Source of the DNA: Thermodesulfatator indicus DSM 15286
GTDB taxonomy: Bacteria > Desulfobacterota > Thermodesulfobacteria > Thermodesulfobacteriales > Thermodesulfatatoraceae
Direction of reading: 5' to 3'
Length of the DNA stretch: 64,000 nt
Assembly (NCBI RefSeq): GCF_000217795.1
Contig: NC_015681.1
Coordinates: forward strand, 1,417,244 to 1,481,243
The first letter of the stretch is position 1; every line of letters begins with the position of its first letter. Positions 1 to 17,033 of this stretch are shown piece after piece. The position numbers and the translations under genes were made by a program. Under the pieces are notes generated by a model, which saw only the letters and a list, made by a program, of their open reading frames with translations, did not search any database and had not been told where the DNA came from.

Positions 1-2
1 CC

Positions 3-1690: not shown

Positions 1691-1694
1691 GCCC

Positions 1695-1985: not shown

Positions 1986-2878
1986 TGGCCGAAGCCGAAG
2001 CTTGTGTTTTTGCCCACGTGGACGAGCTCGCCTGCTCTTAAAAGTGGAGTAAATGGAGTGAGATTACCTTCAAAAGATACCCGGCCTATCAGGCCCCGCA
2101 GGGGCATTTTTTGTTTAGTCCTGGCTGAGTAGCGTGTAATTTCAACGGATTTAAGGTTTTTGGCTGTAGTTTTTATTTGCTTGGCGGCTTCAATCAGGCC
2201 TTTGAAGTCAAGGGCAAGCTCTTTTTCGGCATGGAAAAAAGAAAGGGCTGAGAGCCGTCGCAAAAGATTTCTAATAAAGACGTGAAATTCAAACTGCTCG
2301 GGCTTTACCAGCTTTCCCTCAAACCGCAAGGTTACCGGTGTTTCAAACAAAAGGCTTAGCTTCTCGGTTTCGTAAGGCAAAAATTCACTCAATAAACTTG
2401 GCGGTTTTAGTTTTCCGGCCTGGTAGAGTTCGTCATTTTGGTGGTCTTTTATGGCTTTGAGCCTTAAGGGCACTCTTTCTCGGCCAAGGCCTTTCTCCCC
2501 GGCCGCACTTAAAGCCAGCACCAGATGCGGAAAGTATTGTATAGCCCTGCCCACAAGGGTAAGGCCCAAAAAGAAGGGGTTTTCCCTGGGGGTAGGGTAG
2601 GGCAGGCTTATGGTAAAAGGATGAGGGAGATACGGATATAGACGCAGGCGCTCAGCTCCCTCTGGCCTTGGCGTTTCAAAGATGTAACCGTAAGCGCAAT
2701 GTTGATTAAGCGGACACTCCCGACAGGTGCTAAACTTTCTTGCCACGCAAGAGAGCCTTTTTAGCTGGGCGCCTAAGACCCCGCGAAGGGGCGAAAAGAG
2801 ATAACGAGGAAGACTCTCTGGTTCTTCGGCTTCAAACTCTAGCCACACACGAATAACGGGAAGTTCAAGCGTCTGCAT
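1934..2878 (-). CDS. cas6: CRISPR pre-crRNA endoribonuclease Cas6-like RAMP protein
   Basis: A 314-aa RAMP-type protein of the Cas6 family that cleaves CRISPR precursor transcripts within the repeat. It has an N-terminal RAMP domain with a cysteine cluster (STCRECPLNQHCAYGYIFE) typical of the Cas6 variety with an internal zinc-like motif. The C-terminal glycine-rich loop GKNTSFGFGHYKI is the family signature. Residues after that loop (SSSNSSGSSPQP) lie in the part that overlaps cas2 and look like a read-through tail. The gene is convergent with cas2 and has no effector genes next to it, so it may serve arrays and effectors elsewhere in the genome. Confidence 0.85.
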   Translation of the reverse strand: MQTLELPVIRVWLEFEAEEPESLPRYLFSPLRGVLGAQLKRLSCVARKFSTCRECPLNQHCAYGYIFETPRPEGAERLRLYPYLPHPFTISLPYPTPRENPFFLGLTLVGRAIQYFPHLVLALSAAGEKGLGRERVPLRLKAIKDHQNDELYQAGKLKPPSLLSEFLPYETEKLSLLFETPVTLRFEGKLVKPEQFEFHVFIRNLLRRLSALSFFHAEKELALDFKGLIEAAKQIKTTAKNLKSVEITRYSARTKQKMPLRGLIGRVSFEGNLTPFTPLLRAGELVHVGKNTSFGFGHYKITSSSNSSGSSPQP

Positions 2879-2929
2879 AATGGCATTTTAAACTGAAACG
2901 GTTGATTGGGGCAAAAATTTTGTCTGTTT

Positions 2930-3694
2930 TTAATAGCCTTCCAGATTATAAAGAATCTTTTTGAATCCTAGCTTTTTAAAGAAACTAACGATAGACCTTT
3001 GATTTCCAAGAACTTTTTCTTGTTCGCTTAATGTAACTTCTATTATCGCCAAGTTGGCCTTCTTTCGTACTCTCACCAAAGAAAGTCCTAGTCCCTTAAG
3101 ATAATTTTCGGCCTTCTGTATCATTAAAAGGCTATCCCGGGTTATTGGTTCTCCTGTAAGGAATCTGGTGGCCAAACAAGGGGAGGCTTCTCGTTTATAA
3201 TTTGGTAGTCTAAATTTCTTCGCCAATAAACGAATTTCCTCTTTTGGGAAGCCAGCTTCTTTTAAAGGAGATAAAATTTTCAGTTCGCTGATAGCCTTAA
3301 GCCCGGGCCTATAATCGTTTAAATCGTCTAGCTGAGTGCCATCAGCCACGGGATACGGGCTTTTAGTGATTAAGGCTTTAAACATTTCTTTTTTACAAAA
3401 GTAGCAGCGGTTTTTAGGGTTTTGCTGGAAGGCTTTAAGGCTTAGGTGATCAAAAGCGATAAATTCATGTTTTATTCCTAAGTGTGAAGCCACCAGCCTG
3501 GCGTGGTATAAATCTTCTGGATTAATAATAGGCGAGGTTATGGTGTAAGCTAAAACCTTTTTACGGCCTAAAAAGTTAGCCGCTAAAAAAAGAAGGACGC
3601 TGCTATCAAGGCCCCCTGAGAGGGCTATCGCAAGCCCCCCCAGGTTTTTAAAAATGTCTTCAAGGCACTTTAGCTTTTGCGCTATCTTTTCCAC
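2930..3694 (-). CDS. larE: LarE-type ATP-dependent sulfur transferase (adenine nucleotide alpha hydrolase fold)
   Basis: A 254-aa PP-loop ATPase of the LarE family, which adenylates a carboxylate and delivers sulfur. The PP-loop SGGLDSS is at about 26-32. The cysteines CYFC (97, 100) and SPCLATRF (173) form the three-Cys set that in some LarE proteins holds a [4Fe-4S] cluster used for non-sacrificial sulfur transfer. The start is a GTG overlapping the stop of the DUF39 gene by one base. No other lar genes (larB, larC, larA) are visible, so classical nickel-pincer cofactor synthesis is doubtful. The operon instead suggests sulfur delivery to homocysteine synthesis, which is inference. Confidence 0.82.
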   Translation of the reverse strand: MEKIAQKLKCLEDIFKNLGGLAIALSGGLDSSVLLFLAANFLGRKKVLAYTITSPIINPEDLYHARLVASHLGIKHEFIAFDHLSLKAFQQNPKNRCYFCKKEMFKALITKSPYPVADGTQLDDLNDYRPGLKAISELKILSPLKEAGFPKEEIRLLAKKFRLPNYKREASPCLATRFLTGEPITRDSLLMIQKAENYLKGLGLSLVRVRKKANLAIIEVTLSEQEKVLGNQRSIVSFFKKLGFKKILYNLEGY

Positions 3695-4878
3695 TAACGG
3701 AATGGATAAAGTTCGGTGCCAGGGAATGGAGCCTGGGGTTCGCTAAGCAGGAATTTGCCTTCTTTTATCCAATTCTTCAGGGTTTCGGCGATTTTTCTAG
3801 CTTTAACTATGCTCGAAAGAGGTACGGTAGGAATTTCTTTATCTAAAACCCTTATAGTACCGCTTTTGAGTTCGGCATAGCTCACAGTGCCGTAAGAACG
3901 CTTGATGCCATTGGGATAATCGTGAGCGTAATCCACCACTTGGGTGAAAAGTTCCTCATCAGAAAGCCCGGCAAAGGCTGCTATTTCTTCGTTAAGAATA
4001 GGTATGGGCACACCTAGGCCTACCGCCAGAGAGCATCCATAACCCAAAATGCTAACACCCACTAGCCATTCAGCACTCATTTGTTTCATGTCTCCATAGA
4101 CCATGAGAGTGGCCGCAGGGGTGAGCGGAGCGCCTTTTTCTGTGCGAGGCACTTTGAAGTTGCACTGGGTCCCTGCCCAGGCTACGTAACCTATTCCACC
4201 TCCTAAGAAAATTCGGGTTCCTACTCCTATGGTACGAAGATACGGATCTTTAAAAAGTGGTGAAAGTTCTCCAGAAGTAGCGTAATTAGCGTTTTGAGCT
4301 CTGGGGCGCAAAATGCCCATGTAGGTGTAGATGGTTTTATCCGAAAGATTTATGGCGCAGTTATAATTTTGGTAAGCATTACGTGGGTTAAATAAAAGGG
4401 CATAAGGAATATCTTTAAGAGTTATTTCTTTTTCGAGGTATTTACGGGGATAACAATGGGTGCCATAAGATGTGGCTTTAAGATAAACAGTTTTTCCGGC
4501 TACCAAGTCTTGAATGACATGGCCTCCGCCGTAACGAAATTCACCAGGATAAACTTTGTTGAGAGGGTCATCTTCACATGGCTCTGTTGCTCCAATATAA
4601 ATGTCAACCGCGGCAATGCCAGCGTAAGCAGGCACGCCATTTAGCCAAACTCTATAGGCCTTAATGGCTGGTTTTGAATGGCCAAAGTTGATAAATGCGC
4701 CAGAGGAACACATGGGGGCAAAAGTGCCAGTAGTAACTACATCTACCTGAGCAGCAGCTTCTTCAGGCCCGTTTTCTTTGACTATCTTTACCATTTCTTC
4801 GGCAGTTACAACTACCGCTTCGCCTTTTTTTATCTTTTCGTTGATTTCATCTATGGTTTTTTTGATTTTGTATCCCAT
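3694..4878 (-). CDS. DUF39/HcyBio homocysteine biosynthesis protein
   Basis: A 394-aa protein of the DUF39 (HcyBio) family, which in methanogens and sulfate reducers is needed to make homocysteine from aspartate semialdehyde and sulfide. Visible family features are the glycine-rich TTGTFAPMCSSGAF segment with a Cys near residue 57, SYGTHCYPRK, and the long GVGTRIFLGGGIGYV stretch. The length is normal. The gene lies 8 bp after a CBS-domain gene and overlaps larE by 1 nt. In archaea DUF39 is often fused to a CBS pair that binds S-adenosylmethionine; here the two parts are separate genes of one operon. Confidence 0.87.
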   Translation of the reverse strand: MGYKIKKTIDEINEKIKKGEAVVVTAEEMVKIVKENGPEEAAAQVDVVTTGTFAPMCSSGAFINFGHSKPAIKAYRVWLNGVPAYAGIAAVDIYIGATEPCEDDPLNKVYPGEFRYGGGHVIQDLVAGKTVYLKATSYGTHCYPRKYLEKEITLKDIPYALLFNPRNAYQNYNCAINLSDKTIYTYMGILRPRAQNANYATSGELSPLFKDPYLRTIGVGTRIFLGGGIGYVAWAGTQCNFKVPRTEKGAPLTPAATLMVYGDMKQMSAEWLVGVSILGYGCSLAVGLGVPIPILNEEIAAFAGLSDEELFTQVVDYAHDYPNGIKRSYGTVSYAELKSGTIRVLDKEIPTVPLSSIVKARKIAETLKNWIKEGKFLLSEPQAPFPGTELYPFR

Positions 4879-4886
4879 AGTCTCTC

Positions 4887-5486
4887 CTATTCTACTAGAG
4901 ATACTACTTGATGACCTGCTATTTCGAGGGCTGCGGCAATAGGGTCAAGCGGACATTTCTCAAGCCTTACATAATAAATTTTTTCCCCGCTGGGATGTAT
5001 ATCCATACCTACGGAAATTACATGTCCACCGTGAGTTTTTATGATGTCAAGAACTTCTTCAAAACTTTTATTTTTCGCGGGGATAACATCAATGCGAGAG
5101 CTTGAGCGCAAAATGCCCATCAGTTCTATAAAGGCCTCAAGAAGATCGGTAACAGTAATAATGCCGACCAGTTTTCCGGCTTGGATAACCGGAAGCCCAC
5201 CTATTTTGTGGCGGTGGATAAGGCGTGCCGCTTCGTCAATGGTGGCTTCAGCGTCAACGGTAATGGGGTTTAATATCATTACCTCTTTTATGGGGAGGGA
5301 ATCTTTTATAGAAGGAAGGGTGTATTGACGAATACTGCTTTCTGTTACTAGACCCACCAGATCTTCTCCATCAACCACTGGCAGATGCCTGATAGAGTGT
5401 TTTTTCATTAACTGGAGAGCTTCTTCTACAGTGGCCTCTGGTGAGATAGTAATTACATCTTTTATCATCCAGTGTTTTATACGCAA
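4887..5486 (-). CDS. CBS-domain pair protein with C-terminal ACT-like domain
   Basis: A 199-aa cytosolic regulator-type protein with two CBS repeats (about 7-60 and 67-120, each with HLPVVD or GLPVIQ and a following LVGxxT). A C-terminal ACT-like region follows (about 128-199). CBS pairs bind adenosyl ligands. A TTG start at 5486 is preferred because an AAAGG sits 5 nt upstream; ATG at 5468 is the alternative. It is the first gene of the CBS-DUF39-larE operon. Sensing of S-adenosylmethionine or AMP to adjust homocysteine synthesis is likely but inferred. AcuB-like proteins share the same architecture. Confidence 0.85.
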   Translation of the reverse strand: MRIKHWMIKDVITISPEATVEEALQLMKKHSIRHLPVVDGEDLVGLVTESSIRQYTLPSIKDSLPIKEVMILNPITVDAEATIDEAARLIHRHKIGGLPVIQAGKLVGIITVTDLLEAFIELMGILRSSSRIDVIPAKNKSFEEVLDIIKTHGGHVISVGMDIHPSGEKIYYVRLEKCPLDPIAAALEIAGHQVVSLVE

Positions 5487-5553
5487 CTTACCTTTCTCCT
5501 TAAAAAAACTATTAGAACCTTGACCCTAAATATAGCATGCTTTTACTAATTGG

Positions 5554-8500
5554 CTACGCTGCCTTTTGCCTTCCTTCCTGCTCGGCAAAGTGTTCGCGTA
5601 CCTGATGCATAAAGGCCTCAAGCCGCATCCTGGTGCCCATAGAGCGTTGACCATCACAGGAAACAGTAAGCATGGGGATAAGGCCGTTTTCTTCGCGAAC
5701 TCTTTTAAGCACCATAGCTACTATAGTTCCTGGCATACAGGTAAATGGAATAACGTTTATAATTCCATTTACCCCGTGGCGCAAGTAGTCAAGGCTTTTG
5801 CCTACCGAGAGAATAGCTTCACCTTCAAACTCGTCATTCATGTACTTTTGGGCTAGCTTAATTATCTCTTCTACCTGTGGATCTTCGGCGGTCTTCAAAA
5901 TATCTTGCACCAGTGCAGCAAAGCGGTGCTCGTCTTTTACCTGAACGTGATGCTCAATTATAAGACGAACGAGCTGTTTAAACTTGCGGAGCCTCTTGGC
6001 CCATCTTTTAGAGGTGTAATTGATGTAATAAAACCACTCAGAAACAGGGGGGAGCCATACTTCTGCTCCCATTTCTTCGAGGACTTTTATTAAATCTTCG
6101 TTGGCAAAACGGTTCATTCTTACATAAATTTCTCCTACTATACCTACGACAGGTTTTTCTCCAAAGTTTTCCGTAGGTATAGCGGCAAAGGCTCCACGAA
6201 TTTCTTCCATAACCGGGAGTAAGTCTTTTCGTTCCTCTATGGCTTGGCATATTTTCTCAAGGCTTTCCTTGTAAACTTTTTCTGTTTCTCCGACGTTAAT
6301 TTCGTAGGGCCTTATTTCGCGTAAGAATTTGTCAAGAATGTCTATGCAAACTAAAGCCTTCCAGGAAAGCCTGGTAAAGTCTTTTCCTATCATGCCAAGC
6401 TCTTGGTAGAGCTGAAAATTCTGGGTAGGTGAATAAATGGGTACGTCTTCGTAGCCGAGTTGGTCAAGAATCATGCGATGTAGGCGGTTATACTGGCCAA
6501 AACGGCAGGGGCCAGAACCTGAAGGCATAAAAAAGGCCGCCCGTTTAGGGTCAAAGTCAGGACGTTTTAGCATTTTTAACATGTCGCCCGTGGTAAGTAC
6601 GGCTGGATAACACTCTTTCCCTGAAGTATAACGACGGCCAAGGCGTAAAGACTCTTCGTCTGATTCAGGAAGGACGCGTGCGTCTACTCCACAAGCCCGA
6701 AATACAGCAGCTAGCCCGTAAACATGATCTGACATGTAAGGTAGATAAATGATACGCTGGTCCTCAGGTTTTACAGCTTTGCGATATGGTTTAACAGGCT
6801 TTTGAGGAGCCAAGTTTCTTCCTCTTATACTGTCAAGGAAGGCTTCTATGCGGGTAACTACGCCGGCATCAGCGCTGTGTTCGTCTATCTCTATTTCAAG
6901 ATAGGGTTTGCCTCCAAGGAGTTCTTCAAAGAAGTGAATAATAAAGGAATCCGGACCACAAGAAAAATTAGTTAAAAAGATAGGGTAAAGTCTTGGGTGA
7001 TTTCTTATAAAATGAGCTGCTAAGAGAAACCTTTGGCCATAGCGCCAGTACATGCCTTCAAGACCGTCTAAGTCTTTAATTTGGTGGAGAGGGAGCATGT
7101 CAACAGGAATGCCTAAAACACCGAGGCTCCTAATTTTATTGTGAATGGAAAGATTGGCCCCTGGATCAAAGGCATTGTAAGGACGACCAACAATCACTAA
7201 GGCTACTTCTTCTGGGTCGAGGTTTGCTAAAACTTCTTCGCCGCGTTTTTTAAGCCAACTATCAAAGTCTCTTTGAGCCGCTTCAGCCTTTTTCCAGGCC
7301 TCTTTTACCTGTTTTTGAGAAACACCAAGAAGATTGGCCAATTCACCTTTCTGTTTTTCAAGCACTTTGCCTCCGGTGCCAAAGTGAAATACCGGGGCCA
7401 GAATATTCGCTCCGTATTCTTTAAGGTTGATTGATGCCTCTAAGGCCGCCGCCACACTTTGCACGTAAGGACAAATTTTCCCACTTTTTAGGTCTGGATG
7501 ATCGGCTGGTAGATCAACTATGTAAGGTACGAAAATCTTTTTTACACCCTTTTTTAGCAAATCAAGGACATGGCCGTGAGCTACTTTTACTGGAAAGCAC
7601 GTCTCTGCGGCAACTATTTCACAGCCTTCGTTTACCAGCTTTTTATTCGTAGGTTCCGAAAGTACTACTTTAAAGCCTAACTCCTGAAGAAGAGTGGCGA
7701 AAAAGGGAAGTCTTTCAAAATAAAAGAGCATACGAGGAAGCCCTATTTCTCCCAAAGGGGCATCTTCTTTATCAACTACATAGCTCAAAAGTTTTTCTGT
7801 TCTTTCGTTAACCAAGTTTGGCAGACTGGCGGGGGGTTTGCGATGTTCCACCTCGTATTTTTCACAGCGCCCGCCATAAAAATAAGGTTTGCTGCCTTCA
7901 ATGGAAACCTGCCTTATTTCGCAGCGATTAGGGCAGGCCTGACATTCAAAGGTAGAGATTTCATATTGGATATGGGACAAATCAAATCCGCGGAAAGAAC
8001 TTTTCCCTTTGGATTCTTCTAAAGCAAGAAGGGCTACTCCCATGGCCCCGGTTACTTCGTTATGCGGAGGAACAATTATTTCTTTACCGAGGACTTTTTC
8101 AAAAGCGGCCACTATGCCTTTATTAAAGGCCGTAGCTCCCTGGTAAAATACCTTATTTCCGATTTTGCGGTTTTCTACCACTTTGTTTAGATAGTTGTGG
8201 ACAATGGCGTAGCATAATCCGGCGATGAGATCTTCTTTAGGGAGCCCCTGCTGTTGGTAATGCAAAAGGTCAGACTGCATAAAAACAGTACAGCGCTCAC
8301 CCATCTCCACCGGTGCTTCAGATTTAAGGGCGTAATCGCCAAACTCTTCAATAGGTACATTTAGACGTACAGCCTGTTCTTCCAGAAAAGAACCAGTCCC
8401 TGCAGCACAGGCTTTGTTCATAGTGAAGTCAACGATAGTTCCATTTTCTAAGCGGATATACTTTGAATCCTGCCCGCCTATTTCTATGATGGTATCAACA

Positions 8501-9732
8501 CTTGGGTCAATGGCTGCGGCGGCTTTGGCCTGGGCAGTTATTTCATTTCTAATTACATCGGCACCGACAAAGTCTCCCACCAGGTAACGGCCAGAGCCGG
8601 TAGTGCCGACGCCTAGGACTTCTATCTCCAAGTTTTTGGGAAGTTTTTCTCTTAGGGCCATAAGGCCTTTTTTGACACTTTCAAGCGGCTTTCCGTGATG
8701 GAGGGAATAAGTTTTGGCAATAAGCTTTCCTTCCTCGTTGATGGCTACAAGCTTAGTGCTTACAGAACCTACATCTATGCCCAGATAAACACGCAGTTTC
8801 CCCTGACTCTGGGGAAATAGAGTTTGCGTTTTGGGAGTGCGCACGGTATAAGGCCCGAGTTTTGGGAGCCTTTTTACCGTGCGCTTTCTTTCTTTTAAAT
8901 ATTCTTTAAGAACTTGAGAGCCTTGATAAGGCGAGGTAAATCGGCCGTCAAGGCCGTAAAGAGAAGCCCCTATGGCCCCCATGATAAAGTGATAATCGGG
9001 TATGATGAGCTCGCCTTCTTTGAGATTAAATATTTCTTTTATAGCGCGGCGAACTCCATAGTTGGCAGCTACACCTCCCTGAAAAACAATTGGTGGTAGT
9101 ACCTTTTTGCCTTTGGCGAGATTACTTTTAAGATTTCTGATGATGGCAAAACAGAGACCGGCAATAATTTCGTGGTCAGGCACAGCGGCTTGCTGGAGGT
9201 GAATCATGTCAGACTTGGCGAATACCGTGCAGCGGCCAGCAATACGAGGAATGTTTTCAGCTTTAAGGGCAAGTTTGCTGAATTCCTGAATAGTATAACC
9301 AAGGCGAGCGGCCTGCTGTTCAAGGAAAGCGCCGGTGCCCGCGGCACAAAGGGTGTTTAAAGCAAAGTCCTTTATGCGAAACTTGCCGTCTTCGTGTGAT
9401 ATAAAGACCAACTTTGAATCTTCGCCACCGATGTCAATGATAGTGCGGGCCTCGGGATGAAAGTGTTCTACGGCCCGGGCATGAGCCATAACTTCATTAA
9501 CAAAGGCTACAGATAATATCTTAGATATGGTTTTGCCGGCGGTGCCTGTGCAGGTGAGGCCTTCTAATTCGTGGCCAAACTTGTCTTCTACATCAGCCAA
9601 AATTTTGGCCGCTGTTTCTACCGGTTGCCCATGAGTCTTTTCATATGCGTGGTAAATAATTTCTCGCTTTTCGTTCAGTACCGCTACTTTGGCAGTGCCT
9701 GAGCCCACATCAAGGCCAACATAGTATCCCAT
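5554..9732 (-). CDS. Giant 2-hydroxyacyl-CoA dehydratase activase-like protein (double BadF/BcrA ATPase + DUF2229)
   Basis: A 1392-aa protein built from two ASKHA ATPase domains in tandem, YVGLDVGSGTAK at residue 3 and YLGIDVGSVSTK near residue 320. Each has the paired cysteines of archerase-type activators (CAAGTG and GRCTVF in the first, CAAGTG and ERCTVF in the second) that bridge a [4Fe-4S] cluster at a dimer interface. A CQACPNRC segment follows, then a DUF2229 domain and an HgdB-like C-terminal half with further conserved Cys (KECYPAV, SGPCRFG, PFTCMPG). Such proteins inject low-potential electrons with ATP hydrolysis; the true substrate of this widespread family is unknown. ATG 9732 is chosen over an upstream ATG (9795) because GGAGG lies just before it. 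No dehydratase subunits are adjacent. Confidence 0.87.
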   Translation of the reverse strand: MGYYVGLDVGSGTAKVAVLNEKREIIYHAYEKTHGQPVETAAKILADVEDKFGHELEGLTCTGTAGKTISKILSVAFVNEVMAHARAVEHFHPEARTIIDIGGEDSKLVFISHEDGKFRIKDFALNTLCAAGTGAFLEQQAARLGYTIQEFSKLALKAENIPRIAGRCTVFAKSDMIHLQQAAVPDHEIIAGLCFAIIRNLKSNLAKGKKVLPPIVFQGGVAANYGVRRAIKEIFNLKEGELIIPDYHFIMGAIGASLYGLDGRFTSPYQGSQVLKEYLKERKRTVKRLPKLGPYTVRTPKTQTLFPQSQGKLRVYLGIDVGSVSTKLVAINEEGKLIAKTYSLHHGKPLESVKKGLMALREKLPKNLEIEVLGVGTTGSGRYLVGDFVGADVIRNEITAQAKAAAAIDPSVDTIIEIGGQDSKYIRLENGTIVDFTMNKACAAGTGSFLEEQAVRLNVPIEEFGDYALKSEAPVEMGERCTVFMQSDLLHYQQQGLPKEDLIAGLCYAIVHNYLNKVVENRKIGNKVFYQGATAFNKGIVAAFEKVLGKEIIVPPHNEVTGAMGVALLALEESKGKSSFRGFDLSHIQYEISTFECQACPNRCEIRQVSIEGSKPYFYGGRCEKYEVEHRKPPASLPNLVNERTEKLLSYVVDKEDAPLGEIGLPRMLFYFERLPFFATLLQELGFKVVLSEPTNKKLVNEGCEIVAAETCFPVKVAHGHVLDLLKKGVKKIFVPYIVDLPADHPDLKSGKICPYVQSVAAALEASINLKEYGANILAPVFHFGTGGKVLEKQKGELANLLGVSQKQVKEAWKKAEAAQRDFDSWLKKRGEEVLANLDPEEVALVIVGRPYNAFDPGANLSIHNKIRSLGVLGIPVDMLPLHQIKDLDGLEGMYWRYGQRFLLAAHFIRNHPRLYPIFLTNFSCGPDSFIIHFFEELLGGKPYLEIEIDEHSADAGVVTRIEAFLDSIRGRNLAPQKPVKPYRKAVKPEDQRIIYLPYMSDHVYGLAAVFRACGVDARVLPESDEESLRLGRRYTSGKECYPAVLTTGDMLKMLKRPDFDPKRAAFFMPSGSGPCRFGQYNRLHRMILDQLGYEDVPIYSPTQNFQLYQELGMIGKDFTRLSWKALVCIDILDKFLREIRPYEINVGETEKVYKESLEKICQAIEERKDLLPVMEEIRGAFAAIPTENFGEKPVVGIVGEIYVRMNRFANEDLIKVLEEMGAEVWLPPVSEWFYYINYTSKRWAKRLRKFKQLVRLIIEHHVQVKDEHRFAALVQDILKTAEDPQVEEIIKLAQKYMNDEFEGEAILSVGKSLDYLRHGVNGIINVIPFTCMPGTIVAMVLKRVREENGLIPMLTVSCDGQRSMGTRMRLEAFMHQVREHFAEQEGRQKAA

Positions 9733-9933
9733 TACCGGCCCTCCATCACGGTTTTCTTGAATCTTAAGTTTTTTACTATGTATTTTCAAGCACATTTGTT
9801 ACTTTTTGAGGACGAGAGCTTTGGACGAAGTTTTTAAAATTCCTGGTGAAATTTATGATGAGACTTTTGGAAAAATATTTTAATTTTATTTTCTATTCTC
9901 CGTTTTGGCCATTAAAGCAAAAATTTCTGATTT

Positions 9934-10636
9934 CTATCCCTTTTGCTTATCTCTTTTTCTTTTCTTCTGTCTGGCCGAAAGGGGCCTATTTCTCCTGGCC
10001 TTTGCTAAAACTTCACAAAATATCCCCTTCCTACGACACCTCCTCCTTAACTCTTGCTTATAATAAGTTTTATCTGCAAAAACACTTACCTCATCTCCTT
10101 CAAGTAGTTCATCAACAACTTGGGAATCGTGCACGTTAGCTGGTGTGCAAACGAACTCTGAAACAAACTCATTTTTAACGTCAATAGCAATATGGTCTTT
10201 GTAGCCGTAGAAGGATTGTTTTTTCTTTTTAGTGAAGTCTGCATCGGGATCGTCTTTTCCTGAATTTCTAGCAGCCTTAACTATACGAGCATCAACGATT
10301 TTTCCTGTCTTCAACTCATAACCCTTTTCAGAAAGCTGGCGATTTAGTTCCTGAAAACATTCTTTATAAAGTTCCATAGAATATAGGTCTTTGCGGAAGC
10401 GGCAGATAGTAGAATGGTCAGGTACAGGATCAGCGGCGGAGAGATCGAGGAAGCGACGGTAGAAGAGGTTGCCTTTGAGCTGGAGTTCAATCTTTAGAAA
10501 GATAAAGAGAAGCGAGGATTTGTTGAAAAGGATCCCAATTGATAAGTTTATTGATACGAGCCAAGATGTCATCAGGCAAGTTTTGATAGATAAGATGTTT
10601 GCCTATAGTTAGATTTGTATTATTTCCTCTGAGCAT
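9934..10636 (-). pseudogene. IS5-family transposase remnant (DDE), internally deleted and 3'-truncated
   Basis: The reading starts at ATG 10636 behind AAGGAG and gives an IS5-type N-terminus (MLRGNNTNLTIGKHL...). The frame stops after about 50 codons near 10485. A second frame continues with ELQLKGNLFYRRFLDLS, DPVPDHSTICRFR, the DAR motif near KIVDAR, YGYKDH and the ANVHDSQVVDEL block. The usual 30-40 residues between the two parts are missing, so an internal deletion plus frameshift is likely. The C-terminal part with the last catalytic Glu (RxxVE region) is replaced by a basic tail and a stop at 9934. It lies at the distal end of the integron cassette array and probably truncated it. Confidence 0.85.
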
Positions 10637-10732
10637 AAATGAAGCTCCTTTAGTTTTTAAGTAGATTTATCATGAGAAATATTACTATTCAACAAATTTT
10701 GTAAAGATCTCTTTTCTATTTATATAGGGCTG

Positions 10733-11389
10733 TTAATATTTATTTATTATCTCATATATTATTTCAGCTGTAACTCCCCAAATAATTCCTACATTAGTTT
10801 TATATACCAGAACTCTATATTTTTTACCACCCCAAGGTTTCCAATATCTTTTTGGCAAGCCTAATTCCTTGGCAGGAAAAAGGACTATTTCTTCTCCATT
10901 ATCATTGATATATGATGGTTGTATTTCTAATCTGACCTTATATATTTCAGGCGAATTCTTTTTGAAATAAGATACTGGTAATGTAAAAATACTTTCTACT
11001 TCAGCATGATTAATATGTAACTCTTGTAAATTTATAATATCTAAAATTCCTACAAATGGATCAATAGCTACCCCCATTGGGGCAATAACTGTATCTAGTT
11101 GGCCAATAATTATAATCTTATTTTTTTCTATACCTAACTCTTCTATACATTCTCTAATAGCTGTATCTTGATAGGATCTATCCTTTATCTGATCAAATTT
11201 ACCTCCGGGGAAACATATTTCTCCACCTTGTTTTATATTTATACTTCTTTTTTGAAATAAAAAATGATATTCATTATTCTGCCAGATTAGAGGCACTAAT
11301 ACTGCTGTATTGACATATTTTTCTCTACCCTGTACGTTAGGAAACCTTGGTAAATTAAATCTTAAAATTTGTAAATCTTTTTTATTCAT
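10733..11389 (-). CDS. Nudix hydrolase, NudL/CoA pyrophosphatase-like (integron cassette 5)
   Basis: A 218-aa Nudix protein. The UPF0035-type signature is present: FQKRS, then GGEICFPGGKFD, followed by the Nudix box core RECIEELGI. These are features of coenzyme A diphosphatases (NudL/NUDT7 type), which split CoA into phosphopantetheine and 3',5'-ADP. The first Glu of the strict Nudix box is not conserved, as often in this group. The gene is very AT-rich and has no strong ribosome site. It begins 20 bp inside the cassette after attC4. Its stop codon coincides with an AAC core-like trimer, but no attC hairpin follows. Confidence 0.8.
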   Translation of the reverse strand: MNKKDLQILRFNLPRFPNVQGREKYVNTAVLVPLIWQNNEYHFLFQKRSINIKQGGEICFPGGKFDQIKDRSYQDTAIRECIEELGIEKNKIIIIGQLDTVIAPMGVAIDPFVGILDIINLQELHINHAEVESIFTLPVSYFKKNSPEIYKVRLEIQPSYINDNGEEIVLFPAKELGLPKRYWKPWGGKKYRVLVYKTNVGIIWGVTAEIIYEIINKY

Positions 11390-11409
11390 ATTATCATCTA
11401 ATTATCTTA

Positions 11410-11469
11410 ATTTAACGCCTAAACTCACAGGCGAGCGGTATGCCCGTCCGCTGGAGAGGTTTGTTAGAA
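11410..11469 (-). repeat. attC4 recombination site (end of VapBC cassette)
   Basis: On the minus strand it starts with the R'' core TTCTAAC, eight bases downstream of the toxin stop, and ends with the R' core GTTAAAT. The L'' arm CTCTCCAGCGGACGG matches the other attC sites, and the L' side reads GAGTTTAGGCG. The central hairpin is less symmetric than in attC2 and attC3. Length is 60 bp, in the range of short attC sites. Confidence 0.82.
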
Positions 11470-11476
11470 ATTGAAA

Positions 11477-11864
11477 TTATTTATCTTTAAATAAACTTAA
11501 ATTCTTTATAAAACGAAAATCTTTAATATTGTAAGTCCATAAACTAAGATCATAATAGATAGCGGTAGAAGCAATTAAAGCATCTGGTATTTTCAGCCCA
11601 TGACTTTTTGAATATGTTTCAATTAAATTTATTGCTATTTCCGTAATCTCTTCGTTCAAAGACAATATATTGAACTCACTTAATGCTCTTTTGGTTTTAT
11701 TCAGCTCTCTTTTATTAAGTGCTCCATAATATAATTCTATTAGTGTAATAGCACTTAATGCAATATTTTTCCTTTCTAATTTATCGAAAACGTTTTTGAG
11801 TCTCATTGCCTTTTAAGTATTCTATGATTACATCTGCATCACATAAAATTTTTACATTCTCCAT
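11477..11864 (-). pseudogene. VapC-like PIN-domain toxin, frameshifted (integron cassette 4)
   Basis: From ATG 11864 the frame reads MENVKILCDADVIIEYLKGN, the first acidic strand of a PIN nuclease, then hits a stop after about 27 codons. The rest (LERKNIALSAITLIELYYG, KIPDALIAS, YNIKDFRFI) continues in the next frame to 11477. Removing one base from the AAAA run at 11787-11790 restores a 128-aa PIN protein with all acidic residues (two Asp near 9-11, Glu of IELYYG, Asp of IPDAL, Asp of IKDF). A real mutation or an assembly error are both possible. It overlaps the antitoxin by 13 bp, as is normal for vapBC. Confidence 0.75.
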
Positions 11865-12046
11865 GCTTTCTCTCTTAATTTTTCTTTAGTAATATTTCTA
11901 TCTTTCCAAATACCAAAAATTTCCTCAAACTTGTGTTCTTTTTTTAATTTTTGAGATTCTCTTATTTTAACAAAAGGTAGTTGTTTTAAACAATTTATTA
12001 AAGCTCTTCCTTCTTTACTATTTTCAACTTCTAAAACAACCCGGAT
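11852..12046 (-). CDS. VapB-type antitoxin, start codon apparently lost (integron cassette 4)
   Basis: A short frame reads RVVLEVENSKEGRALINCL, then FVKIRESQKLKKEHKFEEIFGIWKDR and ends LREKAWRM. The FGIWKDR...KLREKAW tail is typical of small antitoxins that precede PIN toxins. An AAGGAG site lies 6 nt before codon ATC at 12044-12046, exactly where ATG is expected, and there is no ATG, GTG or TTG in frame. Either the start was mutated or a non-standard start is used. With the frameshifted toxin this makes a decayed toxin-antitoxin cassette. The frame remains open further upstream into attC3, so the 5' limit is a judgement. Confidence 0.55.
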   Translation of the reverse strand: MRVVLEVENSKEGRALINCLKQLPFVKIRESQKLKKEHKFEEIFGIWKDRNITKEKLREKAWRM

Positions 12047-12115
12047 GAGTTTCTCCTTTTTTCTTTTAAATTTTAAATTTCTTGCTATTTTTATTTTAGC
12101 ATATTCTTCAAACTT

Positions 12116-12174
12116 TTTTAACGCCCAAACTCAGCGGCCGGCAGATACGCCGTCCGCTGGAGAGGGTGTTAGAA
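12116..12174 (-). repeat. attC3 recombination site (end of methyltransferase cassette)
   Basis: A 59-bp imperfect inverted repeat that begins 2 bp after the methyltransferase stop. On the minus strand: R'' TTCTAAC, L'' CTCCAGCGGACGGC, loop GTATCT, L' GCCGGCCGCTGAG, R' GTTAAAA. The L'' arm has an extra C relative to L', which leaves an unpaired base when the strand folds. The segments between cores and L boxes do not pair, as in the unpaired central spacer of attC hairpins. Confidence 0.87.
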
Positions 12175-12176
12175 CT

Positions 12177-12980
12177 TTATTTTTTTGCTATAAGATACAC
12201 TCGATAAAAAACTAGCTCAACCTTTCCTTCTTCATCAACCTGATTATAAAAATTTTCCTTTACTATTTCTCTGAAAGCTTTAGCATATGTCTCATCTATT
12301 GGAATCTTGTAATACTTGGGATTTAAATATCCTGCGACCGCTCCAGAATTAAATATATTATATACTTCTTCAGGAGTATGCTTAGTGTGTTTTTCTTCTA
12401 TTTCTGCATAAAGCACTTCAAAATTATTTCTCTCAAAAAGTTCTTTATATTCTTCTGCACTTTCTAAGAAAAACCAGGGTTCTTCAAAAAACTTAAAAAC
12501 GTCTTTGGTTTTTGGATGTTTTTTAACTTCTTCTATGGCTTGAATAAAATTAGGAGAATATACCTTTCGGGCTGGAGCTTGAATTCCTATTCTCCCTTTT
12601 GTTTTAAGAGCTTCATAACACTTCTGGAGTACAATATCAGGATTTTTAAACCATTGAAACGCTGAATTACAAAAAATCACATCAAACTCGTCTTTATAGT
12701 TTATTTCTTCAGCTCTTTTTACTTTAAAAGTTATATTTTTCTTGCCGTATTTATTTAGAGATTTTTCAATCATTTCTTTCTCTACATCAATTCCTATAAC
12801 TTTTCCAGAAGTTATTTTTCTTATTTTTACAGTAAGATCTCCTGTCCCGCATCCAAGGTCAAGAACATCTTCTGTAGGTTTTATCGAGAGCAATTCAAAA
12901 AGTTTCTCACTTGCGGATTTTTGAACGATAGAAGTCTTATCATAACTTTTAGCTACTTCTGAAAAAGTAATTCCACTCAT
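12177..12980 (-). CDS. Class I SAM-dependent methyltransferase (integron cassette 3)
   Basis: A 267-aa Rossmann-fold methyltransferase of the Methyltransf_11 type. Motif I is VLDLGCGTGDLT (about 39-50), followed by the acidic residue of motif II in VIGIDVEKEM and CNSAFQWFKNPD at the motif IV position. The AFQWF context resembles trans-aconitate 2-methyltransferase and BioC, which methylate small carboxylic acids, so a small-molecule substrate is more likely than nucleic acid. The exact substrate cannot be told. The gene is AT-rich, fills its cassette, and ends 2 bp before attC3. Confidence 0.85.
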   Translation of the reverse strand: MSGITFSEVAKSYDKTSIVQKSASEKLFELLSIKPTEDVLDLGCGTGDLTVKIRKITSGKVIGIDVEKEMIEKSLNKYGKKNITFKVKRAEEINYKDEFDVIFCNSAFQWFKNPDIVLQKCYEALKTKGRIGIQAPARKVYSPNFIQAIEEVKKHPKTKDVFKFFEEPWFFLESAEEYKELFERNNFEVLYAEIEEKHTKHTPEEVYNIFNSGAVAGYLNPKYYKIPIDETYAKAFREIVKENFYNQVDEEGKVELVFYRVYLIAKK

Positions 12981-12994
12981 TTTTCCATAACTTT

Positions 12995-13055
12995 TTCTAC
13001 CGCCCCAAACTCAGCGGCGGCGTGTAACGCCGTCCGCTGGAGAGATTTGTTATAT
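12995..13055 (-). repeat. attC2 recombination site (end of DUF262 cassette)
   Basis: A 61-bp site starting 7 bp after the DUF262 stop. On the minus strand: R'' ATATAAC, L'' CTCCAGCGGACGGCG, loop TTACA, L' CGCCGCCGCTGAG, then GGGGCG and a mutated R' core GGTAGAA where GTTAGAA would be expected. The L'' arm has an extra C and an extra A relative to L', so two bases stay unpaired in the folded strand. R'' is the exact complement of GTTATAT at the start of this cassette. Confidence 0.9.
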
Positions 13056-13062
13056 GTTTTAA

Positions 13063-14766
13063 TTAGTTAGTTATTATTCTCATTTTCCTAAATTTATCAA
13101 CTATTAGTTTTTTACGTGCTTCTATAAACTCTTCAAAATTGTCTATTTTCCATAGTTTTTTATCTTTTGGAATCAAATGAATCTCAAAATATTTATCATC
13201 TTTACCTTTTAGCCATTCATCTGGCGGTTTATTTCTTTTTTCATCTCTGTTTTCCTCCGCAGAAAGAAGCATTAAATTTGCAATTTGATCTCTCTCCCAT
13301 TGTTTGTATTTTATAACTTTTCGACCTGTTTCTGGATTTACCACTTTTACTTCTTTTAACTTAGATTGTGGGAAAATGTGATCTACCCATGGAAGATTTC
13401 CTTCATATGCTGGCTTAAAATTGACATCTTGATACCATAATGCAAATATGAGATAAAGCTTTTTGTCTCCATAATAACTATCCAAAAGTGATTCCTCAGA
13501 TATATTTATTGTTCTTCCTCTATTTATAATTTCAGTGTTGATAACGTCAATATCAAAATCTTCCTTCTCGTCTACTTTTTTAATGAGAGCATCTAATAAT
13601 GTATCAGAGCTTCCAGAAAAAGTACCAGTCAACAGAACTCGAGTGAGCCACTTTGCTAATTCTTCTTTATTAGCTGTTTTCCATTTGTCTGGATATTTAT
13701 AATTGAAATATATTAGTGGAATTAATGCCAAGTAACTGGGAAGTGCTTTATCGTCTCTTATGAATGTATATTTACAGAGGAAATCTTTAATTTCTTTTAT
13801 TGATTTTTTAATTTCATCCCAATTATTTTGTAGCTTTTCTAAATTTTCTTCTTTTCTAAATTTCATTACATCATACTTTGCACCGGTACCAATAAGAATA
13901 AGGCTCGTTTTTAAAACGAAATCCCTTTCAAAAGCAAATGCTGTGCTATTGAGATCTTCTAAGAAATATGTCAGATCTTCTTCTATTTCCTCCCAATTTG
14001 CTGTTAGGAGAGAGAACATTAAATCTGATTTGCTTAAAGGAGTACCTCCAGAGTTTGCTCTGATAAATATTTCAACCACATCGTTTAGTGTATACATATC
14101 TGGATTATCTACACTGTCCAACTCTGTATATGCTATATTTTCCTTATCTCTAAATTCTTTAATGAGCTTTAATATATTTTTTCTTATAAGTCTTTTCTCT
14201 TCTTCAGAAATAGAATTAATTTTTTCAACAATTTCTTCTGTAATTTCATCGTATTCTCTATTATCGTACACAATATCCTTTACTTTTACCCATCCTTTTG
14301 TTACATCAGCTTTAGCAGGATTCAAGAATTTAAATTCAAATTTAATATCTTCTTTTTCTTCTTTCCCACTTAACACATTAAAATATAATTCTTCTCCATT
14401 ATAACTACCCTTTAGTGCAATGAACAAACTTTGTAGTCTTTGCTGCCCGTCTAGGACAAGCAACTTCATTTTTTCATTTTTGGGGACATAAAAATCCGTT
14501 AGTTTTATCCCACCTTTGTAATTATCAATAAACTTTCTCATTTTTACAGGCTCTCTTGTTTTCCATATAAGGAAGTTGCCTATAGGATATTCTCTCATTA
14601 TTGAATCAAATAATTTTTCTATTTGGTCTTTTCTCCAAACAAAATATCGTTGAATATTTGGTAACCAGAAACCACCTTGCTCTTCTTCATTATTGACCAT
14701 ACTTACAAATTTTCTAATAGTTTCTTTTCTATTTCGCATGATAATAACTACATTTTTAAAATTCAA
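13063..14766 (-). CDS. DUF262/DUF1524-type GmrSD-like protein, candidate phage defence (integron cassette 2)
   Basis: A 567-aa protein with an N-terminal DUF262 (ParB/GmrS-like) domain: WLPNIQRYFVWRKDQIEKLFDSI, the NTPase/nuclease motif LLVLDGQQRLQSLF and ANSGGTPLSKSDL. The C-terminal HNH-type DUF1524 part has WVDHIFPQSKL and NLMLLSAEENRDEKRNK. GmrSD-family enzymes are type IV restriction systems that cut DNA with modified (glucosylated hydroxymethyl) cytosines; related single-chain proteins are found in defence islands. Start is uncertain: TTG 14766 gives the longest frame, ATG 14739 the next, and neither has a clear ribosome site. It is AT-rich and flanked by attC sites on both sides. Confidence 0.85.
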   Translation of the reverse strand: MNFKNVVIIMRNRKETIRKFVSMVNNEEEQGGFWLPNIQRYFVWRKDQIEKLFDSIMREYPIGNFLIWKTREPVKMRKFIDNYKGGIKLTDFYVPKNEKMKLLVLDGQQRLQSLFIALKGSYNGEELYFNVLSGKEEKEDIKFEFKFLNPAKADVTKGWVKVKDIVYDNREYDEITEEIVEKINSISEEEKRLIRKNILKLIKEFRDKENIAYTELDSVDNPDMYTLNDVVEIFIRANSGGTPLSKSDLMFSLLTANWEEIEEDLTYFLEDLNSTAFAFERDFVLKTSLILIGTGAKYDVMKFRKEENLEKLQNNWDEIKKSIKEIKDFLCKYTFIRDDKALPSYLALIPLIYFNYKYPDKWKTANKEELAKWLTRVLLTGTFSGSSDTLLDALIKKVDEKEDFDIDVINTEIINRGRTINISEESLLDSYYGDKKLYLIFALWYQDVNFKPAYEGNLPWVDHIFPQSKLKEVKVVNPETGRKVIKYKQWERDQIANLMLLSAEENRDEKRNKPPDEWLKGKDDKYFEIHLIPKDKKLWKIDNFEEFIEARKKLIVDKFRKMRIITN

Positions 14767-14795
14767 TTACATTTCAAAAGGTTCAAATATATTCT

Positions 14796-14868
14796 ATATA
14801 ACGACAAAGCTCACCTGCCGCCAAGGAGCGCCAGCGGAATAGCGGTCAGGTGGAGCGATTTGTTCGGC
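14796..14868 (-). repeat. attC1 recombination site (end of first cassette)
   Basis: A 73-bp imperfect inverted repeat. On the minus strand it begins R'' GCCGAAC and ends R' GTTATAT. The L'' arm GCTCCACCTGACCGC pairs with L' GCGGCAGGTGAGC, leaving an extra C and an extra A unpaired, as in attC2. The longer centre (TATTCCGCTGGCGCTCCTTG region) forms the variable terminal structure. R'' is the exact complement of GTTCGGC at the attI junction, as expected if this cassette entered there. Confidence 0.87.
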
Positions 14869-14995
14869 TCTTGCCACACTTTACCAGATAATAGTCTTAG
14901 TCTGATGATCAGGCGGAACCTCATTTTCAACCGCAAGGAAAATAGTTATCCAATAAATTGAAAGCGACGGATACTAAACTTACTTTAGAGGCCTT

Positions 14996-15238
14996 TCAAA
15001 TGAGTTCCCAAACACCTTGAGGAGACATATTTGCTGCCTTCATTATCCCTGTTTTTCTAAGCTCTGTAGCGGCCCATCTAACATCATATTGCCAAGTATA
15101 GAAAAGGTTTCCAGACGCCCTTAATTCATCTTCATACTTATCCCATATGTATTTACAAACATCGACTATTCTAGCACTCTTCCCATTAGCCCTCAGCGCC
15201 TCCACCAGCCAATCTCTCAAATCATATTTATCAGCCAT
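14996..15238 (-). CDS. 80-aa winged-helix-like protein, unknown function (first integron cassette)
   Basis: A small soluble protein (ADKYDLRDWLVEALR..., ARIVDVCKYIWDKYEDEL..., WQYDVRWAATELRKTGIM, PQGVWEL). The alternation of short helices with a final W-containing strand resembles the winged-helix N-terminal domain of Mrr-type restriction proteins, but no nuclease domain is attached. I do not recognise a precise family. It has a good ribosome site (AAGGAG, 7 nt before ATG) and is the gene closest to the Pc promoter, so it should be the best expressed cassette. Its base composition is less AT-rich than cassettes 2-5. About 130 bp separate its stop from attC1. Confidence 0.75.
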   Translation of the reverse strand: MADKYDLRDWLVEALRANGKSARIVDVCKYIWDKYEDELRASGNLFYTWQYDVRWAATELRKTGIMKAANMSPQGVWELI

Positions 15239-15261
15239 TTGATATCTCCTTATTTATTTAA

Positions 15262-15268
15262 GCCGAAC
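15262..15268 (-). other. attI crossover site (GTTCGGC)
   Basis: On the minus strand GTTCGGC precedes the first cassette, 24-30 bases upstream of its ATG. Recombination by IntI occurs between G and TT, so the chromosome-cassette joint is between 15268 and 15267. The seven bases are the exact reverse complement of the R'' core of attC1 (14862-14868), which is the relation expected for a cassette inserted here. Confidence 0.82.
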
Positions 15269-15325
15269 ATTTCATTTTGACCTGCGGCCGTGGATTTGGA
15301 AATTTTATTATTACCCACCCCCAAT

Positions 15326-15361
15326 TTAGGGGATAGTACCATATAGGTTGGCCCCTGTCAA
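15326..15361 (-). promoter_or_regulatory. Pc-like cassette promoter (TTGACA-17-TACTAT)
   Basis: The minus strand reads TTGACA (15361-15356), a 17-bp spacer and TACTAT (15338-15333), a near-perfect sigma-70 promoter directed into the cassette array. The start is predicted near 15326. A CCCC/GGGG inverted repeat (15319-15332) covers the start region. It is the only strong promoter seen for the minus-strand cassettes. Confidence 0.8.
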
Positions 15362-15399
15362 AAAATTTACTCAAAATTAGCCGTATAAAGTTAATAAAT

Positions 15400-15431
15400 T
15401 TGACATAATCATGCTAGAAGATTAATCTAGC
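15400..15431 (+). promoter_or_regulatory. intI promoter with overlapping inverted repeat
   Basis: TTGACA (15400-15405), 17-bp spacer, TAATCT (15423-15428). Transcription would start only about 4 bases before the intI ATG (15439), so the message is nearly leaderless, in line with the absence of a ribosome site. The inverted repeat GCTAGA...TCTAGC (15413-15418 and 15426-15431) covers the spacer and -10 and could be a repressor operator. It does not match the E. coli LexA box. Confidence 0.65.
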
Positions 15432-15438
15432 AGTTACT

Positions 15439-16689
15439 ATGAATAACTCCTGGCAAAACTTTACTGACTATTTAAACGAACTTCCTATTCCTGAAAAAGC
15501 AAAGCCTTTTTACGTTTCCTGGGCAAAGAGAGCCCTTTCTTGGAACAACAATGCCCAGAAGAAATCTGAACCGGTCCCTATCTCGGAAAAGGCTCAAAAG
15601 CGTTTCCTTAAGTTTCTTGAAACCCGTTATGAACCGTGGCAGGTCGCCCAGGCCGAAGAAGCTATAAAGCTCTACAATTACTTCATTTCGTCGGTTCAAA
15701 CCTCTTCCCCTGAAAAACCAGACCAGGCAGCCTGGTCCTACATTAAAGAAGAAGCTTGCCGACTCATGCGCCTGCGTCACCTCTCTTACCGCACGGAAAA
15801 GACCTATCTCTCCTGGATCGGAAGATTTCAAAAATTCATAAATTCCAAAGCTCCAGTCCGTCTTACCGCAAGGGACTTTCAGGATTTCTTAACGCACCTT
15901 GCCGTAGAACGCCGTGTGGCACCTTCCACCCAAAATCAGGCCCTGAACGCCCTGGTTTTCCTTTATAAACATGTATTGCAGCAGGACATCACCGCAGCCA
16001 TTAACGCCGTTAGGGCCAGAGAAAGGCGCCGCCTACCGGTAGTGCTCGAAAAGGAAGAAGTGGAGCGGGTTCTGCAACACATGCCTTATCCATACCATTT
16101 GATCGGCGGTTTGATGTACGGCGGAGGGCTGCGCTTAAGCGAGGCTTTAAATCTACGTGTAAAAGACGTGAACTTTGAAAAACGGCAGATAATCGTTCGG
16201 GCAGGAAAGGGAGATAAAGACCGCGTTACTATCCTTCCGGAAAAACTCGCCGATCCTCTCTGGGAACATTTACAAAAAGTAAGACACCTTTACGAATTCG
16301 ACCGTGAAGAAAATCTTCCCGGAGTCCATCTTCCCGAGGCGCTGGCGCGAAAATATCCAAACGCAGGTAAAGAATGGGCCTGGTTTTGGCTCTTTCCCTC
16401 CCCCAAGCTTTCCGTGGACCCTCGGACCCTTACCGTGCGCCGGCATCATCTCTACCCTACCTCGGTTCAGCGAGCTTTTAAAAGGGCTCTGGCGAAAGCA
16501 GGCATAGAAAAGCCGGCCAACGTACATTCTTTACGACACAGTTTTGCCACGCATCTTCTTGAAGCTGGCTATCACATCCGCACTGTGCAGGAACTCCTGG
16601 GACATAAACATATCCAGACCACCATGATTTACACGCATCTTGCCCGCCAAAAGTTACTAAAAGTCCAAAGCCCGCTGGATAGAGAATAA
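15439..16689 (+). CDS. intI: Integron integrase IntI (tyrosine recombinase)
   Basis: A 416-aa tyrosine recombinase that inserts and excises attC cassettes. Catalytic residues are Arg232 (GGGLRLSE), Lys near 257-260 (GKGDKDR), His363/Arg366 (HSLRHSF), His389 (LGHKH) and Tyr398 (MIYTH). The IntI-specific insertion that distinguishes integron integrases from XerC/D is present: GVHLPEALARKYPNAG, WAWFWLFPS and VRRHHLYPTSVQRAFKRA. The core-binding domain spans about 100-195. An extra ~95-residue N-terminal part precedes it, longer than in class 1 IntI (337 aa). Transcription is opposite to the cassettes, the standard integron layout. Confidence 0.96.
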   Translation: MNNSWQNFTDYLNELPIPEKAKPFYVSWAKRALSWNNNAQKKSEPVPISEKAQKRFLKFLETRYEPWQVAQAEEAIKLYNYFISSVQTSSPEKPDQAAWSYIKEEACRLMRLRHLSYRTEKTYLSWIGRFQKFINSKAPVRLTARDFQDFLTHLAVERRVAPSTQNQALNALVFLYKHVLQQDITAAINAVRARERRRLPVVLEKEEVERVLQHMPYPYHLIGGLMYGGGLRLSEALNLRVKDVNFEKRQIIVRAGKGDKDRVTILPEKLADPLWEHLQKVRHLYEFDREENLPGVHLPEALARKYPNAGKEWAWFWLFPSPKLSVDPRTLTVRRHHLYPTSVQRAFKRALAKAGIEKPANVHSLRHSFATHLLEAGYHIRTVQELLGHKHIQTTMIYTHLARQKLLKVQSPLDRE

Positions 16690-17033
16690 ATAATTGTAGA
16701 AATTGGGACAGGGATTGCTTCGCTTTGCTCGCAATCACCCAATTGTCGCCTATTTAGTGACCCCATTATATCTCTTCTTAGGATTTAGTTTTTTCTTCCA
16801 CGCTGAAATTTAACATAAGGATTGTTTCACTAAGATCTTTTTGTTTTAGGGATTAAACTCATTTTAAAGCGTTACAAAATGATAAAAGATTATCCAAAAT
16901 TCCCGCTTAAACGGGAATAAAGGATATTAAAAGATTATAATTCGTGTTGCAAAATAAAAAAAAAAATTTTAGGAGTGGTTGGACCTTAAAAGGTTTTAGG
17001 TATGGGCTTAAACAAATATTTTCGGAGGGGAAA
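16690..17033. other. Gap between intI and hydrogenase: REP-like repeat and a small hairpin
   Basis: It holds a REP-like segment (16711-16734, identical 24 bases at 18732-18755) that includes ATTGCTTCGCTTTGCTCGCAA, and a perfect 7-bp hairpin ATTCCCG/CGGGAAT (16899-16918) upstream of the hydrogenase gene. I see no attC site or gene here, so the integron does not continue on this side. Confidence 0.6.

Follow-up and report, generated by a model that had tools for sequence, protein, structure and literature searches.

A small winged-helix protein encoded by an integron cassette of Thermodesulfatator indicus belongs to a mobile family linked to restriction and other defence genes

The first, attI-proximal cassette of an integron in Thermodesulfatator indicus is filled by a gene for an 80-aa winged-helix protein. 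This protein belongs to a family of small winged-helix proteins that recur as integron cassette genes and are strongly linked to genes for restriction and other defence systems. Defence genes neighbour the family far beyond chance, so its members are probably portable helpers or regulators of the anti-phage defences to which they are linked. Our preferred reading, to which we assign a probability of about 0.4, is a functional inference: the protein would act as a mobile DNA-binding accessory of restriction and other defence systems, either a reader or a recruiter, and perhaps a reader of DNA marks. The genome was analysed as one contig of 2,322,224 bases; the window, by which we mean the whole stretch of DNA studied here, comprises 64,000 nucleotides of it, and its features are collected in Table 1.

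Table 1. Features of the integron and its cassettes, in window coordinates.
Feature	Position	Strand	Basis
Integron integrase, 416 aa	15439..16689	+	TIGR02249, 411 bits (cut-off 265), residues 108-415
Promoter-like site, possible Pc	15333..15361	-	TTGACA-17-TACTAT, 10/12; consensus match only
attI/cassette 1 junction core GTTCGGC	15262..15268	-	Sequence
Cassette 1, 466 bp, from TTCGGC through the G of the following attC R' box	14802..15267	-	Own core and own R'' complementary at 7/7
Shine-Dalgarno-like AAGGAG	15246..15251	-	Sequence; 7 bases ahead of the ATG of the winged-helix gene
Gene for the 80-aa winged-helix protein	14996..15238	-	ATG-start ORF; relatives; AlphaFold2 pLDDT 95; weak Mrr_N match
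attC of cassette 1, R'' GCCGAAC	14796..14868	-	Single-strand fold z -2.94; attC model 62.6 bits (training sequence)
Cassette 2: GmrSD-type (DUF262 + DUF1524) modification-dependent restriction enzyme	13063..14766	-	Pfam GmrSD_N 2.7e-33, GmrSD_C 3.7e-8
attC of cassette 2	12985..13055	-	Model match 12995-13055, 41.9 bits, not a training site; fold z -3.68
Cassette 3: class I SAM-dependent methyltransferase	12177..12980	-	Pfam Methyltransf_31 2.5e-23
attC of cassette 3	12116..12174	-	attC model 65.8 bits (training sequence); fold z -4.41
Cassette 4: PIN-domain protein	11477..11806	-	Pfam PIN 4.9e-14
attC of cassette 4	11410..11469	-	attC model 65.3 bits (training sequence); fold z -1.50, by itself not significant
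Cassette 5: NUDIX hydrolase	10733..11389	-	Pfam NUDIX 1.5e-9

The core at the attI junction is complementary to the R'' box of the following attC at all seven positions, a score reached in 0 of 1740 pooled shuffles; this complementarity identifies cassette 1 as a single complete cassette in first position. The integrase lies 171 bp from the junction. Together with the ORF itself, these features bear out the attI-proximal placement given in a preliminary description of the sequence. By its position the cassette would also be the newest, as that description held. The N-terminus of the integrase is some 100 aa longer than the TIGR02249 model (window 15439-15760). No attC was found behind the NUDIX gene of cassette 5 by the attC covariance model, and an Rfam search of window positions 1-17000 gave no match. 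The distal end of the array is bordered by a transposase-like ORF that looks IS5-type by eye (window 9934-10640).

An ATG-initiated ORF of at least 80 aa arises in 4.3% of shuffles of cassette 1 and length alone is thus weak evidence for a gene; it is the presence of relatives in 80 other genomes that establishes the ORF as a real one. Its GC content of 41.2%, against 26.1-30.7% for the other four cassette ORFs, agrees with the distinct base composition reported previously. The gene had also been placed directly behind a strong promoter. A sigma-70-like site with a 17-nt spacer and a TG preceding its second hexamer was indeed found, while the attribute of strength is suggestive only, because the scanned stretch holds three such sites and shuffles of it hold 2.1.

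To follow the gene as a cassette elsewhere, an attC covariance model was trained on three window sites and five sites beside relatives, eight in all, and was run on the window and 83 loci. At E < 0.01, matches occurred only in the window and in 7 of 80 relatives (L015, L016, L030, L032, L035, L058, and L059), always adjacent to the winged-helix gene. Five of these seven had supplied a training site; the independent matches are those in L030 and L058, four more sites in L015, and the second attC of the window. An integron integrase is also present in L030 and L058, and the seven relatives are spread over several parts of the family tree. Given these sites, we consider the winged-helix gene a recurrent cassette gene. 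L073, L023, and L024 were not counted as cassettes, their attC scan scores being chance-like, nor were loci with a core-like GTTRRRY upstream, recognized by eye, and no attC match (e.g. L006, L033, L037, L071, and L073). A second attC array was observed outside the window, about 90 kb from the first (G000:C1:1336101-1339072, locus L100), with four matches, one of them weak. At positions 104-316 of this locus, an out-of-frame ORF like one within the integrase gene of the window hints at a further integrase encoded on the minus strand; inside the second array (3455-4396) lies a longer ORF similar to the transposase-like ORF of the window.

Relatives were collected by a GTDB genome scan with a four-sequence alignment, which reported 146, and the best 80 (L006-L085) were fetched. 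These 80 show 46-76% identity and derive from Pseudomonadota, Bacillota, Actinomycetota, Thermodesulfobacteriota, Acidobacteriota, Chloroflexota, and other phyla, as well as three archaeal bins. The scan looks for short peptides, F[YF]TWQYD among them, and the invariance of F46 and T48-Y51 is therefore partly built in; outside both search peptides, L39 and W55 are conserved in 79 of 79 rows and R54 and L60 in 78 of 79. A search of the phylum independent of these peptides found the gene, besides T. indicus, in 3 of 296 genomes (a weak match inside an 851-aa frame was left out). Three further searches of this kind, covering 298 (E up to 1e-8), 368, and 395 genomes, found it in none, one, and none, respectively, and turned up no intermediate relatives; from the few members and the lack of intermediates, the family is rare and sharply bounded. 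Exactly one copy was present in each of the 43 genomes examined. In the family tree, computed from 82 columns and poorly resolved in its deeper branches, the window protein is closest to those of a Desulfobulbaceae bin and an acidobacterial bin (support 98/83 for the three). A DNA-level search of E. coli with the winged-helix gene of Trabulsiella gave no match.

Members are similar in size: 75 of the 79 aligned are 76-92 aa long, with extremes of 70 and 103, in a set filtered to 70-110 aa with starts set at the beginning of the alignment. At about 15 loci the open frame extends further upstream of the assigned start, and longer products are possible there. As relatives are mostly of the same size within the filtered set, we rejected the alternative, raised in the preliminary description, that the gene is the remnant of a larger one. 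Five of the 80 relatives fall outside the alignment, three with an in-frame stop (L013, L040, and L082) and two with the 5' part or start missing (L039 and L046). One in-frame stop was seen in at least five copies (these three, L102, and L073, where it lies near the end), and the gene is thus dispensable in places.

The AlphaFold2 model of the window protein is a winged helix with a pLDDT of 95, comprising helices at residues 4-17, 24-41, and 45-62 and strands at 21-23 and 76-79, as its earlier description from sequence had suggested. Mrr_N (PF14338), the N-terminal domain of Mrr-type enzymes to which the protein had been likened, is the sole Pfam family with matches from two or more members: 26 of 79 reach it at E up to 0.01 (best 1e-5), and the window protein itself scores 20.3 bits, under the gathering cut-off of 29.5, such that the resemblance stands as a distant one. 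Otherwise the protein remains unrecognized, as first described. NCBIfam returned 0 families across the 79 members; PADLOC 2.0.0 returned 0 families for the window protein and one weak model match (E 0.0075) among the 79; a few members have weak matches in PHROGs; and no housekeeping family was found among these matches. A search of the open literature, including the motif TWQYD, Mrr_N names, and passages of PMC2292703, PMC12707154, and PMC11090510, yielded no publication naming the family. In fold comparison the best match is the linker histone globular domain (Z 9.7), followed by cullin and forkhead winged helices, with the DpnI winged-helix domain also among the matches (Z 8.3, rmsd 2.4, 71 aligned); Foldseek gave no match with E up to 0.001. 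The modelled fold, being generic, indicates a winged helix and no more. A match to PvuRts1I over 37 positions (E 0.022) was treated as chance, as a designed repeat protein matched better (0.006). The net charge is 0 for the window protein and +0.6 on average for the family, which is near neutral.

The genomic surroundings are more specific. We annotated 215 of the 226 neighbours that lie within two genes and encode at least 110 aa; the 11 left out include all those of L013 and L048. Their clusters comprise C5 methyltransferases at nine loci, Vsr nucleases at six, DrmB-like proteins and large helicases at five each, and Z1 and DUF4420 proteins at four each. Among Pfam families, tabulated in two batches as family counts with the matching member not given, C5 methylase came top in one batch (6) and second in the other (2), after HATPase_c_3 (3). 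For a base rate we used the genomes of 43 of the 80 relatives (181.2 Mb), which hold 43 C5 and 26 Vsr genes once split matches are merged. In 11 of the 43 genomes, no more than 10 kb separates the winged-helix gene from a C5 DNA methyltransferase gene, against 0.20 expected, and a Vsr nuclease gene is found at this range in 8 of 43, against 0.12, in keeping with the tie to restriction proposed earlier. The 11 C5-linked genomes include seven from Actinomycetota, among them two sister Nocardioides, and three from Bacillota or Gammaproteobacteria, and so are not independent; the expectation also takes no account of contig ends. For these reasons we quote an excess and not a P value.

By marker genes, 18 of 80 relatives have a defence neighbourhood, which is a lower bound; the remaining 62 showed none of the counted markers in an annotation that did not reach every neighbouring gene. 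Loci with GHKL-type neighbours (L021, L025, and L086) or DndB-like neighbours (L056 and L071) were left out of this count, and L045 was dropped as its large neighbour has no Pfam match. Many copies have ordinary neighbours, as where FtsK-like and LolA-like genes (named by eye) flank the winged-helix gene. Such copies, and the linker histone domains as closest folds, would fit a general small DNA-binding protein, whether of the nucleoid or a housekeeping regulator, whose link to defence islands reflects mere mobility. The rarity of the family in the peptide-independent searches (3/296 in the phylum besides T. indicus; 0/298, 1/368, and 0/395 in the other searches) and a linkage excess of about 50-fold or more speak against such a protein, and we regard it as unlikely.

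Of the 18 defence-linked loci, eight (L028, L075, L036, L048, L029, L011, L061, and L064) have the winged-helix gene in the same orientation as an adjoining defence gene, and in six the nearest C5 or Vsr gene runs in the opposite direction. In the DISARM-like locus L028, genes for a helicase, an MZB (DrmB-like) protein, and a PLD protein are followed, 16 nt after the last, by the winged-helix gene. In L075 the order is Z1, DUF4420, AIPR, the winged-helix gene (2 nt after AIPR), and an overlapping NERD/helicase gene. L036 is a type I-C cas operon in which Csd1 and a Cas7-like ORF (by eye) precede the winged-helix gene, with Cas4 and Cas1-like and Cas2-like ORFs behind it; L048 matches it in layout, as judged by gene lengths, and its Cas4 is nearly identical. 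In the GmrSD operon of L029 (Desulfallas), an Eco57I-type enzyme, a small ORF, and GmrSD precede the winged-helix gene, and a helicase follows it. Here the gene lies 24 nt downstream of that for GmrSD, which is 55.5% identical to the enzyme of cassette 2 in the window. Among eight more distant GmrSD relatives in the phylum (25-40% identity), none has a winged-helix gene within about 1.5 kb; with two genomes only, the pairing is suggestive. An attC match was also observed immediately ahead of the gene for a GmrSD relative that shares 40% identity with that of the window (L091:3257-3323, minus strand), and the enzyme may itself travel as a cassette.

Placement inside host defence operons, with spacings of 2-24 nt, also bears on the suggestion in the preliminary description that the protein is an anti-restriction factor or decoy, occupying or blocking restriction sites or enzymes and so shielding incoming mobile DNA. 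Its mobility and lack of a nuclease would suit such a role, as would its occurrence in four IMG/VR contigs, three of them with an adjoining CI-repressor-type gene. The places where counter-defence genes are expected, however, yielded nothing: at E 0.01 there was no match to the window protein in 50,697 phage records, nor to two queries in 72,556 plasmid records. At every locus with a recognized defence neighbour, the winged-helix gene keeps company with defence genes of the host and not with phage or plasmid counter-defence loci, although the three IMG/VR loci (two identical in sequence) place it next to a phage CI repressor. We regard this suggestion as very improbable. In the IMG/VR contigs L086 and L088, the winged-helix gene was seen just behind or near the CI-repressor-type gene.

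A close rival, which we rank second and hold to be possible, is that the protein regulates the transcription of defence operons and perhaps its own. Like the small controller proteins of restriction-modification systems, but built on a winged helix, it would limit or time expression of genes whose products are toxic on entry. Its size, fold, and single copy per genome are fitting, and regulation easily accounts for the mechanistic diversity of the linked systems. At 7 of 13 actinobacterial loci (L031, L038, L041, L051, L061, L070, and L083), a 12-mer, AGCTGnnWAGCT, occupies exactly positions -18 to -7 relative to the start codon of the winged-helix gene, the usual place of a Shine-Dalgarno sequence, and it has just one other copy in 887 kb of loci. 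The 12-mer was, however, chosen after inspection of the data. Its dyad occurs in 0 of 69 other loci, where a single AGCTG is mildly enriched (14 vs 6.8), and it was not found ahead of the neighbouring methyltransferases in the 13 actinobacterial loci. An upstream operator common to the whole family was looked for in the loci and none was found; it would be unusual for a regulator to keep helix 3 nearly constant and yet lack a constant operator, and several copies lie inside operons.

We favour the accessory over the regulator on the following observations: a confidently modelled winged helix with Mrr_N matches and a DpnI fold match, linkage to C5 and Vsr genes, embedding in several operons, a nearly constant helix 3, co-direction with the adjoining defence gene in 8 of 18 loci, the identity of the two GmrSD enzymes, and the want of a family-wide upstream operator. 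On the other side stand the near-neutral charge, the generic fold, a GmrSD pairing confined to two genomes, and the opposite orientation of the nearest C5 or Vsr gene in 6 of 18 loci; the 62 relatives without counted markers indicate that a fixed partner is not general. Acting as an accessory, the protein would use helix 3 and the C-terminal wing to bind double-stranded DNA and would serve as an add-on reading or recruiting component for restriction and other defence enzymes. It could thus be the counterpart of the winged helix fused within Mrr or DpnI, here as a separate mobile polypeptide. In T. indicus its likeliest partner would be the GmrSD-type enzyme of cassette 2, although we can only guess at both this partner and the DNA feature that is read. 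A bolder version, about which we are doubtful, is that of a universal plug-in, one winged-helix reader of a common DNA feature recruited separately by C5 restriction-modification, DISARM, Z1/AIPR, GmrSD, and type I-C CRISPR systems and circulated by integrons as a free cassette.

A conserved gene that recurs in diverse anti-phage systems and in integron cassettes, with no NCBIfam or PADLOC model, is a small missing piece of defence biology. A protein that reads DNA marks would amount to a portable specificity module, and one that regulates would reveal how toxic defence genes stay safe during transfer. Its occurrence as a cassette is consistent with the idea of chromosomal integrons as stores of defence genes.

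Several known systems invite comparison. The C proteins of restriction-modification systems are small, stand-alone DNA-binding proteins, and the winged-helix protein is likewise small, stand-alone, and found beside restriction-modification genes; theirs, however, is a helix-turn-helix of the XRE type. The linker histone H1/H5 globular domain, the top fold match (rmsd 2.1, 67 aligned), belongs to a eukaryotic chromatin protein, is 17-19% identical in the top rows, and shows a generic winged-helix resemblance. Likeness to Mrr_N consists of a weak, recurrent match over helices 2-3 and the wing, a winged helix, and a restriction context, whereas the window protein falls below the cut-off and stands alone at about 80 aa; unlike an Mrr-type restriction enzyme, it stops at the wing, without the C-terminal nuclease domain. 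The C-terminal winged-helix domain of DpnI (4esj and 4kyw) may share the fold of the window protein over the 71 aligned residues, its Z of 8.3 standing among those of many other winged helices (Foldseek ranks 2-3, E 0.04-0.05, not significant by E-value); identity is 8%, and the DpnI domain is fused to a PD-(D/E)XK nuclease. The winged-helix domains of Mrr and DpnI are described in passages of PMC12707154 as binding modified DNA. Finally, several members lie within gene sets of Z1, DUF4420, GHKL ATPase, C5 methylase, Vsr, and DrmB-like proteins, as in DISARM and in the MORC/Z1 restriction-modification neighbourhoods of Iyer et al. (2008; PMC2292703), the passages of which mention no small winged-helix component; nor is the winged-helix protein covered by a PADLOC model. 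Winged helices and Mrr_N are already known; what is new is a winged helix outside the models of NCBIfam and PADLOC that is mobile, stand-alone, Mrr_N-like, and tied to defence.
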